DNA of 64,000 nt from Cucumis sativus (taxonomy: Eukaryota; Streptophyta; Magnoliopsida; Cucurbitales; Cucurbitaceae), in contig NC_026661.2 in assembly GCF_000004075.3 (NCBI RefSeq), forward strand, positions 5,602,058 through 5,666,057, in the 5' to 3' direction. Of this stretch, positions 9,716 through 32,482 are shown one piece after another; position 1 is the stretch's first letter; each line of letters begins with the position of its first letter. Made by a program: the position numbers and the translations under genes. A model generated the notes under the pieces. That model saw only the letters and a program-made list of their open reading frames with translations. It was not told the origin of the DNA and did no database searches.

Positions 9716-11267
9716 AAAAGTTCAAAATGCACTATAGGGGAGGTATAGTAGTTGAAACCCTACCCAAGCCTTATTGCACTATTTGCAATTTAAGTTTTTC
9801 GTTGCAATTGACAGATTTCAATTCTTGTTTTAACAACGATTTCAATGAAATTATTTTTTTTCACTATTTCTAAACCATTTTCTAAAAAAAAAAAAACGTG
9901 ACGGGAGGTTGAATCGTATCATGAGTTTGTCCGCGATTTTTCGAATTTTGATTGACTAACTTGTTGACTAGGTCGAACAAGTGCCGCACAATCGCTCGTC
10001 CTGAGGTTAAAAGGTTGCGATCGTGACAGAGACATGTGTCCCCTTCACATTCTCGATTTTTGTATTTTAATATTAATTTTGAAATGTTAGATTACAATAT
10101 ATATTAAATAATGCTTTCTTTTTACTAAATTATGGTTCTGTAGTGGTTGTGCCCCCAATTATTTTTATAAAATAATTTTTATTCCAAATATCAATAATTT
10201 TTTCTTCAAATGACTTTTTAAAATGAAGATAATTTGAATTTTCTTCCTAAATATGAATAATTTTCTTCTCAAGATGATTTCCTAGGACGAAGATAATTTG
10301 ATTTTTCTTCCTAAATTTCAATGATTTCCTAAAAGAATATAATTTGATTTTCTAAAAAGAATATAATTTGATTTCTTAAATGAAATATAGTTTTAAGAAA
10401 ACTTATCTAAGATAAAAGAAAAACCTGCTTTGTTTCCTATCTCTCATTTGTTATCTTAGAAAAAAAATCGATGATCCAAACTTTCACTCTCTCGAAAATA
10501 TTCCATGAAAAATGAATCATTTTTTAATGTAATTTTTAAATTCACATATTTACATTACTTATGCATATACTTACTTTATACTATTTCAAAATTAAAGGTT
10601 ACAAGATAATTTTAATACTCCATATATCAATTTTATTAAAAATTTCAATAATGTCATAAAAATAATTTTTTAAAAAGAAGAACAAAACTTAACTAAAATA
10701 AAACCTTAACTTATATTTTTCTAACCATCATTTGCTATCTAATAAATATTTAGAAAAAAATGGGATTTAAATTTTCACTCTTCCAACAACATTAAAAATG
10801 TATTATTTTCTTATGCAATTTTTAAATTTATATTTACATTACAAAAAAATCATATGAAAATTACTAAACTTTTTTTGTCTTATAGGATCAGCCAAACCTC
10901 GAGATAATTTTTAAATATTTTTGTGTGTTTATTACCATATAAAATTTATGATCCTTCATTTCAAATATCGAGTTTCATTCATCCATCTAGTCCCACGTGG
11001 TCGACGGTTTGGTTGCTGGTGATCGGTCACCGATTTGGTTGTGTTTAGGGTTGGTATGAAGGTGGAAAGACGAAGGTTAGAGAGAAAGAAGAGGTGGTGG
11101 GATGAAAAGGATTGGGTTAGCGGGTGAATTAATTGGGGTTTTGGAAATTAATTTTATGTAAAACGAAAATGACACAACTAAAATTTCTCCCAGTGAAGCC
11201 TTCATCTTGAGAGATTGGGCTCTCTCTCCTGCCACAGCCAAAGCTTCGATTAAAGAAGCATGCGGCC
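9716..11267. other. AT-rich intergenic spacer and PPR promoter
   Basis: Includes a small GC-rich patch near 9900-10040 and long AT runs around 10100-10960. The final 150 bp precede the PPR start and must hold its 5' UTR. No gene or clear repeat is supported. Confidence 0.35.
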
Positions 11268-13117
11268 ATGTACTGTTTCATTCGTCCTTTTCACAGCGCT
11301 GTTCATCTTCTCAAGCCCTCTTCCATATTAAATTCTAACCACAGACCTTTAATTTCTTGTCATTACACTCACTCTGAAGATGTTTCCATCAAACCCCTCC
11401 TTCAAACACACAATGTTGTTGACATCCAATTTCTTGTTCAATTACTGCGACATGGGTCTCCCCCTACTCCTCCCATTCTCACTAAAACCATATCCATCTG
11501 CACAAAATCCACCCTTCTGGACTTTGGAATTCAAGTCCATTCAACCATTATCAAGCTGGGTTTCTCTCTCAATCCTTATATTTTTACTGCTCTTGTTGAT
11601 ATGTATGGTAAATGTTGGTCTATCTCGGATGCCCACAAGGTGTTTGATGAAATGAGTTGTCCAAGTGTGGTCACTTGGAATTCTTTGGTTACTGGTTATT
11701 TGCAAGCTGGCTACCCTTTGATGGCAGTTTCTTTGTTTTTAGAGATGCTAAAGAAAGGGATTGAACCCACCCCTTCAGTTTATCTGGTGGTCTTGTGGGC
11801 TGTTCTCAGTTACAAAAGGGAGATCTTGGAAGTCAACTTCATGCTATGAGTTTGAAACTAAGGTTTTCGTCTAATGTTGTTGTGGGTACAGGATTAATTG
11901 ATATGTACTCTAAGTGTTGCAACCTTCAGGATTCGAGGAGAGTGTTCGATATAATGCTGAACAAGAATGTGTTTACTTGGACTTCGATGATCTCTGGTTA
12001 TGCTCGGAATCAGTTGCCTCATGAGGCAATGATTTTGATGAGAGAAATGCTGCATTTGAATCTTAAACCAAATGGTATGACTTATAATAGCTTGCTAAGT
12101 TCATTTTCATGTCCTCGTCATTTTGATAAATGTAAGCAAATCCATTGTCGCATAATAACGGAAGGGTACGAGAGTAATAACTATATAGCTGTTACACTTG
12201 TTACTGCATATTCAGAATGTTGCGGTAGCTTGGAAGACTATAGGAAGGTTTGCTCAAACATTAGAATGTCAGACCAGATTTCGTGGAATGCAGTCATAGC
12301 TGGTTTTACGAACTTGGGAATTGGTGAGGAAGCTTTGGAATGTTTCATTCAAATGAGGAGGGAAAAATTTGATGTGGACTTCTTCACATTTACAAGCATT
12401 TTTAAGGCTATAGGTATGACTTCAGCTCTAGAAGAAGGAAAGCAAATTCATGGTCTAGTTTATAAAACTGGATATACTCTAAATTTATCTGTCCAAAATG
12501 GTCTTGTGTCTATGTATGCTAGATCTGGTGCTATCAGGGATTCAAAAATGGTCTTCTCGATGATGAATGAACACGACTTAATATCCTGGAATTCATTGCT
12601 TTCAGGATGTGCTTACCATGGATGTGGTGAAGAGGCTATAGACTTATTTGAGAAAATGAGAAGAACGTGTATCAAACCAGATAATACCTCATTCCTTGCT
12701 GTTCTCACTGCTTGTAGTCATGTTGGCTTGCTGGACAAGGGACTTGAATATTTCAAGTTGATGAGAAATAGTGAATTGGTCGAACCTCCAAAGCTGGAGC
12801 ATTATGCTACCTTGGTTGACCTTTTCGGTCGAGCAGGAAAGCTTTATGAAGCTGAAGCTTTCATTGAAAGCATCCCGATAGAACCAGGGATTTCAATTTA
12901 CAAAGCTTTGTTGAGTGCTTGCCTAATCCATGGAAATAAAGATATTGCCATTCGTACTGCGAAAAAGCTTTTGGAACTATATCCATATGATCCAGCAACT
13001 TACATCATGTTGTCGAATGCGCTGGGGAGAGATGGTTATTGGGATGATGCTGCTAGCATAAGGAGGCTAATGTCCAACAGAGGAGTCAAGAAAGAACCTG
13101 GTTTCAGCTGGATGTGA
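11268..13117 (+). pseudogene. PPR gene split by one frameshift
   Basis: Intronless PLS/E-type PPR gene in two overlapping frames. Frame one runs from the ATG at 11268 to the stop at 11847-11849; the PPR text is lost after KKGIEPTP. Frame two carries PPR text in register from about 11771 (FSLSGGLVGCSQLQKGDLG) to the TGA at 13115-13117. One extra base in the C run at 11770-11773 would join them into about 616 residues, so this looks like a one-base loss. Repeat text includes LVDMYGKCWSISDAHKVFDE, VTWNSLVTGYLQAGYPLMAV, WTSMISGYARNQLPHEAM, ISWNAVIAGFTNLGIGEEAL and, in the E-like end, LEHYATLVDLFGRAGKLYEA and KKEPGFSWM. It ends there without E+ or DYW. Downstream codons are otherwise undisturbed, so either the mutation is very young or it is a sequence error. 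It probably targets a plastid or mitochondrion. Confidence 0.8.
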
Positions 13118-14086: not shown

Positions 14087-14093
14087 CTAAGAG

Positions 14094-17000
14094 TCAATGC
14101 TGGAAGCTTTTGTCGTCGAATCTGGCTGTTGGGACATAGTTTTTAGTAGATGAATCTGCACAGCCTTCAGGAACAATGATATTAACTTGTTGCGTTCCTC
14201 TTCCCCCATTGATTCTTTAAAATTGCAAAAAATGAACGATTAATGTGAATTAAATCCCAAAAACAAATGATAGACAGACTAGAATTGAAAACTTTCCCTA
14301 CCATAAGAAGTTCCCGACTGTACAACAACATCCTCATTTGCATCTACAGTAGCAGCTTCTTTAAAAATGAAAAAAAGAAAACCTAATTAGGCTTTATTTA
14401 AAAAATAAAAACAAATTATCAAAGACTACTTTGAACGTAAGAGTTGCTTACCAGAACTTCCTGACTGAACGACATCCTCATTTGCACCCATAAGAGCCGG
14501 TTCTTCTAAATTTTATAAAACTGACCATTAATGGTTTGACTTGCATATAACAAATAGTCTTCAAATGTAAAATTTGCCTACCAGAAATTTCCGACTGAAC
14601 AACATCCTCAGTTGCATCTTCGACAGCAACTTCTTTAAAATTGAAAAATGAATTATTGTCTTAGATCAAATTTCTTAATGTAAATGATCAAGGAGCAACT
14701 TTAGATGTAAATGTTAATTACCATAAGAAGTTTTTGACTGAACAGCATCCTCATTTGCAATTCCAAGTGGGACTTCTAAGATTGCAAGGAAGAATTATTA
14801 GTGTAAACTAAATTTTAGAAAACAAATGATCAAGACATGATTTTAAATGTAGAAGCTGCCTACCATGAGAAGTTTCTAACTGAACGACATCCTCATTTGT
14901 ATCGATAAGAGCCTCAACTGTTTCTTCGATGGCGTTTTCAAGAGCTGTTTCTTTAGCATTGGAAAAAAAAAAGAGATTAAATTTAAGAACACAAATAATC
15001 AAGACATGAATTTGAATGTGAAAGTTAACTACCGTTCGAACTTCCTGACTCAACATCCTCATTTGCATCTTCAAGAGCAACTTCTTTAAAGTGAAAAGAG
15101 AATGATAAGTTTAGATTAAATTTCATAAACCAAATGATCCACACACAACTTTGGATTTAAAAGTTACTTACCTTCAGAAGTTTCTGACTGAACAACATCT
15201 TCATTTGCAACATCGAGGGCAGCTTCTTTAAAATTGTAAAAGAAAAACAAAACAATCAATACAGATTAATTTTATAAAAAACAAATTATGGAGAAACGAC
15301 TTTGAACGTAAAAGTTGTTTACCCTGAGAAGTCTTAAACTGAACATCATCCTCGTTTGCATCTCCAAGAGCAGCTTCGTTCAGATACTTGTCAGCCAATT
15401 TAACTCTCTTCACATTCTCCTGTTCCATGACGAGCATGTTGCCATATTCAAGAAGCTTTTCTATTGTCATCTTCGGTTGGTCAAAAGTTGGGGGACTTTC
15501 CTTGGAGTTAACAAGATTTCTTCCAATGCGCTCAACGCCAACGCCTACAGCCCACTTTCTCACTTCATCGTCATAAACTCGAGCTCTCAAAGCACCAAAG
15601 AAGTCTGCAAAACAGTTATATAACTTATAATAAGAGATGCTAAACGTCTGTAAGAGATGATCATTTACAATTAATTAGCTCAACTGGAACATCCCTATAC
15701 AGAAATTATACAACTTACCTATTGACTGTCCTGGGAAGGTGTCGACAAGTTTGACAATATCCTCGAAAGGCACGCCATCAGTCCTAAATATTCCAGTGCA
15801 AATACCAATACGATCTTCACGAGTTGGAGCCCAGTAGAATTTATCCATCCGACCATCACGAATGAGAGGTGCATATAACGTTGAGAAGTCGTTACCAGTT
15901 ACTATGATGGGAACTCTGGGATTTTCTTCCTTGTTATACATGCCTGGTAGCTGCACATTGGTTGGGTTGTCAGCAATGTTCATAAGAGTAGCATTTACCA
16001 TCTGGTTATTCACTGTGTACTGGGTAGTCCCACCAAGCCTTCCAGCTCCAGCATCAAGATCGTTGATAAATAGACAACACATTTTCCCTTTCTTGATGAT
16101 ATCAGCTGCCTCTCTGTATCTTTGCCTGATCAATTTTGCTGGCTCTCCTGCATTCCCACTTTCTAATTCCCCAGCACTCATCATAATAGGGCTGAAAATT
16201 CATCATAACTAAAAAAAATTAAGACCAACAATATATCAGGGAGACGTAGAAGCCTGTATGATGAACTTAAACCCTCCAAACAACTTCCTCAGAACTAGAT
16301 GGTTTTTAACTTACTTGATTCCCATCTTAGCAAATACAAGTTCACACTGGAAAGACTTTCCTTGACCTTTACCTCCCCAAACACCCAGAATGAGAGGAAC
16401 CTAAAATAAATGCATCCAAGAAGGTTGGCAAGTTAGCACTGAAAGACAAACAAGAACTTATTGTCAAATTGTCGCGTCATATTTTTAACCTTAATGTTCG
16501 GGAGGGTCAAGAAGTTCTTAACAATGTGAACCGTAAGTTTGTCCATGAAAGCTGGAGCTATGTAAAACCCATCCACATTATTGTCGTAGCTGTAACTGAA
16601 ACATTGTCACACTTTAAGTACACTAGCATAAAAATGTTCAAACCTACTGCAGAGTTCCATATTAAAACTTACTCTCGAAGTCCAGCACTAATGTATTCAT
16701 ATGAACTCAATACAGCATTGTGAGTTCCTGTCCCCATGGGAGCTTGGAAAAGAGGATCCGCCAAACCCTTCCCTCTGGTAATGTCTTGTTGGTCATCAGA
16801 AGTATCGAAAGCAAGGCCACGCCATTTGTCCTTCTCGGTCTGCTTCTCCTCATCCTGCTCAGCAACAATCTTGAAGTTTCCAGTCACCATTTTTGAGGTG
16901 GTGAATCTAGAACTGACCTTTAACCTGCTGCCCAAAAACGCAGAGTTTGGAACTAAACCTCCATAGTTACTGTTGTTTAGCTGCATAGTGTTAATTTTAG

Positions 17001-17249
17001 AATCGTCAGGCTCTCTTATTTTCAAGCTTATACAAGTCATTACATTACAGATGAAATTCCCCATTCTTTGCTACACCTAAAGCTGTAAATAAAATGACCT
17101 TTCAAGATTGAATGATGAAACCCAGATAGAAAAGATGAAATTATTTTAATATATTGGTATTCTCCATCAAATTACCCAAAAGATTAGGCAGGAAGAAACA
17201 GTACCGTTGTTCTATTAACAGCTCCAATGGTTGAAACCGTGGCAGCCAT
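14094..17249 (-). CDS. RCA: Rubisco activase with tandem C-terminal mini-exons
   Basis: AAA+ chaperone of the chloroplast stroma that removes inhibitory sugar phosphates from Rubisco. Exons on the minus strand: 17249-17205, 16980-16673, 16595-16490, 16400-16315, 16191-15719, 15604-15323, seven mini-exons, then 14197-14094. All introns are GT-AG and phases fit (602 residues; usual length about 430-475). Residues 1-55 are a transit peptide ([15 protein letters not shown]). Walker A GGKGQGKS is at 162-169, Walker [11 protein letters not shown] near 222-231, followed by [20 protein letters not shown] and [13 protein letters not shown]; the AAA+ core looks intact. The C-terminus is abnormal: after [14 protein letters not shown] come seven in-phase repeat exons, then a tail resembling the redox alpha extension (VPEGCADSS) but lacking its second Cys. 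It is convergent with the PPR gene. Core identity is certain; use of all mini-exons is inferred from splice sites. Confidence 0.93.
14302..15225 (-). repeat. RCA: Seven tandem exon-intron duplications in RCA
   Basis: Mini-exons A-G in transcript order: 15225-15172 (54 nt), 15083-15033 (51), 14950-14864 (87), 14775-14722 (54), 14632-14582 (51), 14502-14452 (51) and 14358-14302 (57). Each starts after an AAAG or TTAG acceptor, ends in G before GTAAG/GTAGG/GTAATT-type donors, and is phase 1-1, so each adds a whole number of residues. Consensus peptide is [19 protein letters not shown], matching the end of exon 6 ([19 protein letters not shown]), the evident parent. Introns of 79-97 nt are also alike (TGATCATTTG and AATTTAATCT recur), so the duplicated unit is exon plus intron, about 130-170 bp. 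Exon C is 33 nt longer through an internal duplication ([20 protein letters not shown]). Exon F has a tandem acceptor (TAGAAG) that could add one Glu. Confidence 0.88.
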
Positions 17250-17429
17250 GGATTAAGGATTAAGGAGGGTCTGAACCAGTGAAAATTCTAGTTGCAACCT
17301 TGCACCATCCCTCCTCTCAAAATAGATGAACAATCGAGTGAATCATCTTGAGCTTTCTGAAATTGGCTGTTCAGCCTCTTCACTGCGTCCAATGAACTCT
17401 TGAGAGACTTGCTAGTATTCACAACCACA

Positions 17430-17435
17430 CACGTG
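17430..17435. promoter_or_regulatory. G-box (CACGTG) upstream of RCA
   Basis: Palindromic CACGTG in the context CCACGTGTG on the RCA strand, about 180 bp upstream of the RCA start codon. G-boxes bound by bZIP/bHLH factors are typical of light-regulated photosynthesis genes. Confidence 0.5.
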
Positions 17436-17787
17436 GCAAACTAAGGCACCCATTCAGTAAAATTACTAACAAAACATGATTCTCAAATCTGCTTAATCTA
17501 AAGCGACCGTTGAGGTTAGGATTTAAGTCCCCCTCTGCACCACGTAAAAAGTGGATGTGAAAGACAAACGAAAACAGAGCTCTCATATTTTTTACATAAT
17601 ACTGAAACCACAAACTTTCTCCATTCCATACAGTATGGCCCGTACCCAGGAAGGTAAAACCCAAGCATAATTCAAGAGGTATCCAAAACGATCCGTGCAA
17701 AATAAAACAAAAAACTTGCTTTCTATCCAATCCCAAATATACAAAAACAGAAATCGGGAGACTTTGATGTGCCATATTCAATCACGC

Positions 17788-30433: not shown

Positions 30434-32250
30434 TATTTACAAAATGTGTCGATGAACCTGAACAATTATAAAAGTGTACTGATGTTTATTATTGATGGAA
30501 TTTGAAATTTTAGGAGTTTCTCTTCAATTAAAATCTTTGGTATTTTGAAACACATTGACATTGTAAGAAATTGTTCAATTATACATATTTAATCTAACAA
30601 TTATTAAATACGGCTAATAAAATTTTGAGACCAATCACAAATTGCCACATCATTTATTAAATTAACCATGAAAAATGCAAATAATTGAATTTAGAACTAA
30701 TTAAAATTGACATGTGTCCCAAACTAAAAATTAAAAACATAAATTGGTCTGATCCAACATGTTTTCATCATAACCATTGGATCAAACTAATTATCTTGGT
30801 TACTTGGACTAAGTTCAACTGAGTCCAAAAATAAACCTAATTGAGCGCAAAAGGTAAATATGACTCAAATCCATGTGATTGAACTATGGGTCTGGTTCAT
30901 GGACCAAACAGGTTTAAGCTCATAAAGCCCACTATATAACTCTATAAATATAAGAGTTCTCCTCTTTGGTAAAGGTTGGAGATTTTTTACTTCAGAAGGT
31001 CTAGAGAATCCTTCCAAGAACTAAAAAACCCTCTAATTATTGAAATCGACCATCCTCGAAGATTGAAGCTTATTTGAAGATATAAGTTTTCTTCCAAAAC
31101 TCAAACTTGTGTTCAGCTTCCTCCAAATCAAACTCCTTTGAATATAGAAACCTTATTCCAAGACTCCAACTTCAAGACATGTTTCACTTTCTCCAAATCA
31201 AATGTAAGCATCCAATCGAGAGAGAATAAGATGATCAAATTATAGTAATTGAATCACATCGCATCAAATCACAAAAATACAACATCAACTCAAGTTCAAC
31301 ACTACGAATCAAATTTCTCTGGAAATCTTGTACGAACAGATACAGTATAAGCTTAATTCTATACTTTTTTTATCTTTTACAAAAATCAACTTTTAAAAAA
31401 ATTAGAGAAAATATTGTCGATTGCTTGACATGTAAAAATTCTTTTAAATTATCTTATTCATGGCTTTCTCATCTTTAGTTGTGGCTAATTTTTAGTTTTA
31501 TACATCCGGAATATTACTTTCCAATTTTTAGTTTTATCAATTAAAGGTTGCTACAAAGTAAATACTAACTCTATTTATTATTGTATTCTTTGCCAATACA
31601 TTAAATAATTTATTAATCTTTAATAGTCGTTTAAGTGCTACCCATAAATGGAGGTAATATAGAATTTTTTTCACTAAATTTTTTATCAATGTTTATTATG
31701 TTTTAAAATAATTATGAGAATAAAATTTGGGAGTTTTTTTTTTTATATTAAAACTCTAAAATATTATTTTAAATAAAAAATCAAAATAATAGTTATATCG
31801 AACTAAATACTATAGCCTATTACAAGTGAACCATCAATTGAGAATGTTGGTGATTTAAAATACGTTAAAAAACATTTAAACATAAATTATTTTTCTCCTA
31901 AAGTTTCTCACAATATCAATAATAATCATTGTATAGTTTTTATTTCTAAACAAGTAAAGAAAGAAAATAGAATAAAATGTGATGAAGCTCAAAAAATACT
32001 CACATATTTTTTTATATAGTAAAATAAATAAAAATATTTATAAATTATAGTAAAATTTTACATTTTATCTATGATAGCTACAAACATATATATTTTTGTC
32101 ACTGTCTATCAATATTACTTATAAAAGCATATCATTGACTATCAATATCTACCATTAATATAATCTGAAAATTTGTTATATGTCAGTAAATATTTTGTCA
32201 TATTTAGTATTTTCTGACAATTATATTAACTTACTCATTAATAAGTTAAA
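30434..32250. other. AT-rich spacer with LTR-like segment
   Basis: From about 30840 to 31360 the composition changes and resembles a plant LTR: CTATATAACTCTATAAATAT (TATA-like) at about 30930 followed by AAGAGTTCTCCTC. No TG/CA ends or target duplication could be fixed. No gene seen. Confidence 0.3.
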
Positions 32251-32482
32251 ATTTCTTATATCATTAATTTTGTGTGTAATTAGTGATATTTTGTTTATGT
32301 TTTTTTAATACTTTTTCAATTTATGCTAATTTCTTATATCATCAATTTTGCATGTAATTAGTGATATTTTGTTTATGTTTTTTTAATACTTTTTTCAAAT
32401 TATGCTAATTTCTTATATCATCAATTTTGTATGTAATTGGTGATATTTTGTTTATGATTTTTTAATACTTTTTCAATTTATA
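32251..32482. repeat. Three tandem copies of a 78-79 bp unit
   Basis: Units start at 32251, 32329 and 32408, each beginning ATTTCTTATATCAT, with TGTAATTAGTGATATTTTG (TTGG in the third) in the middle and TTTAATACTTTTTCAA near the end. Copies are about 93-95% alike by eye, so the array is fairly young. Confidence 0.85.

Follow-up and report, generated by a model that had tools for sequence, protein, structure and literature searches.

A cucumber Rubisco activase gene with seven in-frame mini-exons encoding a candidate splice-adjustable acidic C-terminal tail

An intact Rubisco activase (RCA) gene of cucumber carries seven short, tandemly duplicated exons between its conserved core and its terminal exon. 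The gene lies on the minus strand of the stretch of DNA analyzed here, a window of 64,000 nucleotides (nt) of Cucumis sativus (NC_026661.2, contig C7 of the genome), to which our coordinates refer unless a contig is named. Six exons (17249-15323) encode a complete core and are followed by seven mini-exons, m1 to m7, and then by the terminal exon. We read the gene as an alpha-derived RCA with a splice-adjustable acidic regulator at its C terminus, an explanation that, taken as a whole, we regard as evenly balanced between right and wrong. That the array is truly coding is quite probable, and a regulatory role of the array, considered on its own, is a tentative proposal.

In the gene model, exon 1 (17205-17249) holds the start codon and the beginning of a putative transit peptide and ends at a GT donor. 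Exons 2 (16673-16980) and 3 (16490-16595) lead to exon 4 (16315-16400), which encodes the Walker A motif GGKGQGKS, to exon 5 (15719-16191), which encodes the AAA+ core matched by Pfam PF00004, and to exon 6 (15323-15604), matched by PF21228. Both profiles scored above their cut-offs (63.7 bits against 21.2 for PF00004 and 134 bits against 27 for PF21228), and Torsin remained below its own. Among the 31 distinct sequences recovered in a PDB search, the best four were RCA chains (4w5w, 3t15, 6z1d, and 3thg) and the other 27 were other ATPases. The solved plant RCAs 4w5w and 3t15 matched with E values of 1.7e-218 (residues 4-373 aligned to 58-427 of the product) and 7.9e-179 (residues 2-293 aligned to 121-412), respectively.

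We searched 226.6 Mb of the genome in 88 contigs with DNA and with the PF21228 profile, an approach that yields lower bounds. At least four RCA places were found: the array locus, its duplicate on contig C6, an alpha-type gene (L006; C6 850500-860400, at about 855 kb), and a beta-type gene (L007, on C5). One further, distant RCA-like gene was found in exon pieces at 20.05 Mb on C7 (L023; 20053500-20056000), where a stretch of 69 residues shares 67-68% identity with the three RCAs. L006 shares with the array gene the exon plan through exon 6, the AAA+ core, and the PEGC...PTAR tail, but it has a single copy of the segment that is repeated in the array and both redox cysteines, whereas the array gene has seven extra units and the first cysteine only. 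L007 likewise has the AAA+ core and no two-cysteine tail but, unlike the array gene, ends right after one segment (ITRGAF). The array was absent from both paralogs, and a DNA search of the genome with the array region gave no matches beyond the array locus, its C6 duplicate, and a single stretch of 40 nt. The alpha tail exon of L006, with both its cysteines, differs from a statement in PMC4436894, made there with reference to Portis 2003, that beta RCA appears to be the only form encoded by cucumber genes.

The core of the array gene was 88.7% identical in amino acids to that of L006 over 355 core codons (dN 0.078, pS 0.706) and 84.5% identical to that of L007. Such identity to L006 at near-saturated synonymous sites points to strong purifying selection on the core, for at least most of its history. 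We take the array gene to be a true third RCA gene of this genome, alpha-type by descent and predicted to activate Rubisco and hydrolyze ATP. Upstream of the gene, promoter comparison picked out two overlapping motifs on the minus strand, GCCACGTG and TGTGTGGTTGT, about 188 to 172 nt before the ATG (17421-17437); CCACGT and TGTGTGGT also occur 170-207 nt before the ATG in both paralogs, as short and weak matches (best E 0.14).

The seven mini-exons are m1 (15172-15225, 54 nt, 18 residues), m2 (15033-15083, 51 nt, 17 residues), m3 (14864-14950, 87 nt), m4 (14722-14775, 54 nt, 18 residues), m5 (14582-14632, 51 nt, 17 residues), m6 (14452-14502, 51 nt, 17 residues), and m7 (14302-14358, 57 nt, 19 residues), all on the minus strand and delimited by the gene model and by comparison of the units. 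Every length is a multiple of 3, all seven exons are phase 1-1, and none contains a stop. A GT donor follows exon 6 and each mini-exon (8/8), and AG precedes all seven mini-exons and the terminal exon. These features bear out the original prediction of seven phase 1-1 exons of 51-87 nt at this place, and the strand can now be given as minus. The eight introns downstream of exon 6 measure 97, 88, 82, 88, 89, 79, 93, and 87 nt, and the array introns are 57-77% identical in pairwise comparison (28 pairs), which supports the earlier view that exon and intron, the latter of 79-97 nt and mutually similar, were duplicated together as one unit. The GC content is 42.5% in the mini-exons and 24.9% in the array introns. 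As had been proposed, the copies resemble the end of exon 6, whose last 54 nt are like an array unit.

At the protein level, the array codes for 135 residues, the number of additional acidic-tail residues originally estimated, with 37 Asp or Glu, a single Lys, and no Arg (net charge, -36). Acidic residues occur in each of the seven copies, and a charge/hydropathy rule places the array on the disordered side. When the units are aligned with the end of exon 6, Glu9, Asp10, and Ser18 are invariant in 8/8 (for m3, the second part only), Ala7, Asn8, and Gln14 are kept in 7/8, Val12 is kept in 7/7, and several other positions vary freely. The extra length of m3 seems to come from an internal partial repeat, for which 14 of 33 positions match in one register, a value equaled by 1.4% of shuffles. 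Tandem Repeats Finder did not detect the array at its default threshold, as is usual for units this diverged. The Jukes-Cantor divergence between units was 0.43 at synonymous sites and 0.47 in intron interiors; set against a plant substitution rate, it suggests an array age of tens of millions of years, in which case melon would be expected to have the array too.

The gene continues past 14302 into a terminal exon (14197-14094, minus strand), which opens at an acceptor that we call t_b and encodes a diverged alpha-type RCA tail of 34 residues followed by a stop. The array is real, the protein need not end with it, and the tail exon had been missed in the first reading. The full model product with t_b has 602 residues, and its precursor has a computed mass of 65.8 kDa, with a mature protein predicted to run near 60 kDa. 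In alignment with the alpha paralog, the t_b tail showed 47% amino acid identity and kept the first redox cysteine; the second is replaced by Phe. The tail hence has one cysteine, compared with two in the alpha paralog and in alpha isoforms generally, and the gene does not end soon after a single segment as a beta isoform does, for the array and the tail exon follow. A second acceptor, t_a (TTTTAAAG), at 14214 would open an alternative terminal exon (14087-14214, minus strand) in another frame, giving a 610-residue product with an unrelated tail of 42 residues ending in SIDS. The two acceptors thereby open two different frames, both closed by nearby stops within 14087-14214. An alignment of the tails with the alpha paralog, made by eye, suggests that the ancestral terminal acceptor lay between t_a and t_b and has been lost.

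Because the second redox cysteine is replaced by Phe, we do not expect the product of the array gene to undergo the classical redox switching of alpha RCA. In alpha RCA, the negatively charged two-cysteine extension is believed to sit close to the nucleotide site in its oxidized state, and replacement of one cysteine sufficed to abolish light regulation (PMC9951593, PMC4436894); models of the alpha tail are also given in PMC5385338. In the array gene, the repeated segment begins two residues after Tyr413, which itself comes immediately after the last residue aligned to 3t15. We take the 3t15 chain to end at residue 360 and hence equate Tyr413 with tobacco Tyr361. With that numbering, the counterpart of tobacco Tyr361 appears to be kept just before the repeated segment. 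Mutation of Tyr361 in tobacco was reported to abolish both ATPase and activase function (PMC5385338).

We then considered how the array has evolved, using a codon alignment of the exon 6 end and the seven copies in which m3 entered without its first 11 codons and gapped positions were skipped pairwise. The mean difference at codon positions 1, 2, and 3 was 0.176, 0.279, and 0.281, respectively, and the even values at positions 2 and 3 count against strong constraint. Pooled over pairs, pS was 0.325 and pN was 0.221, compared with a difference of 0.331 between the array introns. This yields an omega of about 0.61 (0.615 pooled) with a codon bootstrap range of 0.35-1.06 and 4.0% of replicates at or above 1. 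As the range includes 1, amino acid constraint on the array is mild and not certain. In the comparison of exons with introns that had been called for, pN falls below both pS and the introns, and the bootstrap range of omega reaches 1.06.

Evidence for constraint on the reading frame was clearer. Only 2 of 15 intron indels were multiples of 3, compared with 7/7 mini-exon lengths. Under a star-tree null, copies were jointly stop-free and in frame in 0.00025 of 20,000 runs. As the units share history, we also simulated neutral evolution along the intron tree, with substitution and indel rates taken from the introns. Among 4,000 runs, 61 had no stop, 7 had all copies in frame, and 1 kept every GT and AG, while the three together were obtained in none (0/4000). 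These figures are rough, given a weakly to moderately supported tree (support values, 31-74), a consensus ancestor, and indel sizes drawn from 15 events, but the direction of the result is clear. Since neutral runs almost never kept frame, open codons, and splice sites, and since pS was close to the intron value and above pN, selection on the reading frame of the array is likely. The earlier argument, that seven copies without a stop or broken frame suggest selection, is thereby strengthened, with retention beyond neutral expectation.

The main rival to our explanation accepts that the mini-exons are spliced in but holds that the long disordered tail has no job and stays in frame only because a frame break would damage the protein or trigger decay of the mRNA. 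Retention of frame, open codons, and splice dinucleotides beyond neutral expectation, joined to a mild amino acid constraint with an omega range that runs past 1, fits a jobless tail, as do the freely varying unit positions and the diverged tail beyond the array. The rival fits less well with the unit positions kept in all or all but one of the copies compared and with the acidic residues of all seven, and we consider it somewhat unlikely.

Inclusion of the mini-exons in the mRNA is what we infer from this retention, and the splice sites themselves give a mixed picture. Our splice-site model was built from 16 introns of three RCA gene models, a small set, and its leave-one-out scores served as the reference. 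The eight donors scored 4.2 to 10.7, compared with 0.3 to 11.0 in the reference, and ranked 1st to 14th of the 79 GTs in the region. In contrast, the acceptors into m1 to m7 and t_a scored -6.7 to -0.1, below all 16 reference acceptors (1.5 to 11.4); t_b scored -3.8, and the nine array and terminal acceptors ranked 34th to 71st of the 79 AGs in the region. Weak acceptors count against smooth inclusion of every unit, and mini-exons may often be skipped, or splicing may use other sites. For several units, we considered the second AG of AAAGAAG as the true acceptor, which would remove one Glu from each and preserve the frame. As all cassettes are symmetric, partial inclusion would be harmless to the frame; 128 combinations of mini-exons are possible, with products of 467 to 602 residues when the alpha-type tail (t_b) is used.

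The same observations allow for an array that is mostly skipped, with exon 6 either spliced directly to the terminal exon or extended by read-through of intron 6, and with the mini-exons as splicing noise. The weak acceptors fit such a gene, and so do its alternative products, since direct joining of exon 6 to t_b keeps the frame and gives 467 residues, and read-through into intron 6 gives a 31-residue tail. There would then be no evident reason for seven diverged copies to have kept frame, open codons, GT, and AG, a combination seen in 0/4000 neutral runs, and we judge that a mostly skipped array is decidedly unlikely.

Published isoform lists are relevant to the reading in which the mini-exons are used. 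Table 1 of PMC9951593 has 42 RCA rows, 8 of them from cucumber, including X5 to X8 under close accessions as well as X1 and X2; Selaginella also has several RCA isoform rows there (X3 to X5). Going by that table, a large set of isoforms seems to be predicted for one or more of the cucumber RCA genes. The table names no gene, and we think that the array gene is the source of this set; isoforms numbered up to X8 would fit cassette splicing, although the table does not tie them to the array locus. In the open literature, we found the accessions of the table only in PMC9951593.

The locus has been assembled twice. The window and the 4.8 kb to its left (C7 from 5597251) match C6 12394676-12463506 with 99.84% identity over 68.9 kb, and the C7 copy begins directly after a gap of 500 Ns. 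The copies differ by 84 indel blocks, 78 of them single-base and 63 of these beside an identical base, and by 16 substituted bases (17 mismatches according to BLAST); in the first 40 kb of the comparison, 28 of 29 differences were one-base indels. The pair is probably one locus assembled twice, a false duplication, and a very recent real duplication is conceivable. Double assembly next to a gap could raise the suspicion that the array is itself an assembly artefact. The unit introns, however, differ by 23-43%, a divergence that assembly errors do not make, and everything from exon 6 through the stop codon, array included, is identical in both copies. An artefactual array is therefore highly improbable, and the artefact bears on how often the locus is counted, leaving the array untouched.

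Elsewhere in the window, a PPR gene with an E motif (11211-13117, plus strand) is split over two overlapping frames of 212 and 450 residues; the split is the same in the C6 and C7 copies, indicating a pseudogene or a shared sequence error. At 32250-32481, about three copies of a short direct repeat recur every 78 bases or so.

Tandem exon duplication that yields in-frame cassette exons is a general phenomenon, and the array resembles known cases in that symmetric exons were copied with their adjoining intron. What sets it apart is the number of copies, seven, their very small size (51-87 nt), and their position at the C terminus of a photosynthesis protein. Among the open-licence matches listed, we found no description of an RCA with duplicated exons or with such an array, in agreement with the original statement that no such RCA was known. 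Searches for exon duplication in RCA gave no open-licence paper, and no title on RCA stood among the matches listed for the general literature on tandem exon duplication. The v3 gene numbers of the chromosome combined with "activase" gave no paper, and the v2 numbers gave only an unrelated match. Neither "rubisco" nor "activase" occurs in the main text of the manual cucumber genome re-annotation published in 2024. Protein models of the array gene may already be in public databases, unremarked.

In our preferred explanation, the end of exon 6 and the following intron would have been duplicated in tandem several times, and each copy would have become a symmetric phase 1-1 cassette, so that inclusion of any subset would leave the frame intact. 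The resulting acidic, probably disordered tail beside the AAA+ core would act as an adjustable electrostatic regulator, the simplest functional reading of the sequence. Where ordinary alpha RCA has a short acidic tail that a disulphide holds in place and that is believed to block the nucleotide site, the array gene has lost the disulphide partner, and bulk negative charge, with a length set by splicing, would tune the response to ATP and ADP. Alternatively, the charge could act on subunit contacts in mixed hexamers. Against this explanation stand the weak acceptors, an omega range that includes 1, the diverged tail, and the competing frame-shifting acceptor. A further elaboration, speculative and rather unlikely, is that leaves include a variable number of acidic mini-exons and so adjust how long and how charged the RCA tail is, providing a graded electrostatic switch in place of the lost disulphide and possibly allowing the tail to bind Rubisco or adjacent RCA subunits in a multivalent manner.

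In heat and under changing light, RCA is a limiting factor for photosynthesis, and control is known to act on its C-terminal tail. An RCA tail lengthened in short in-frame increments by a total of 135 acidic residues would offer a ready-made series for relating tail length and charge to the ADP and redox response, and the array would be a clean case for how symmetric cassette exons arise and persist in a plant gene.
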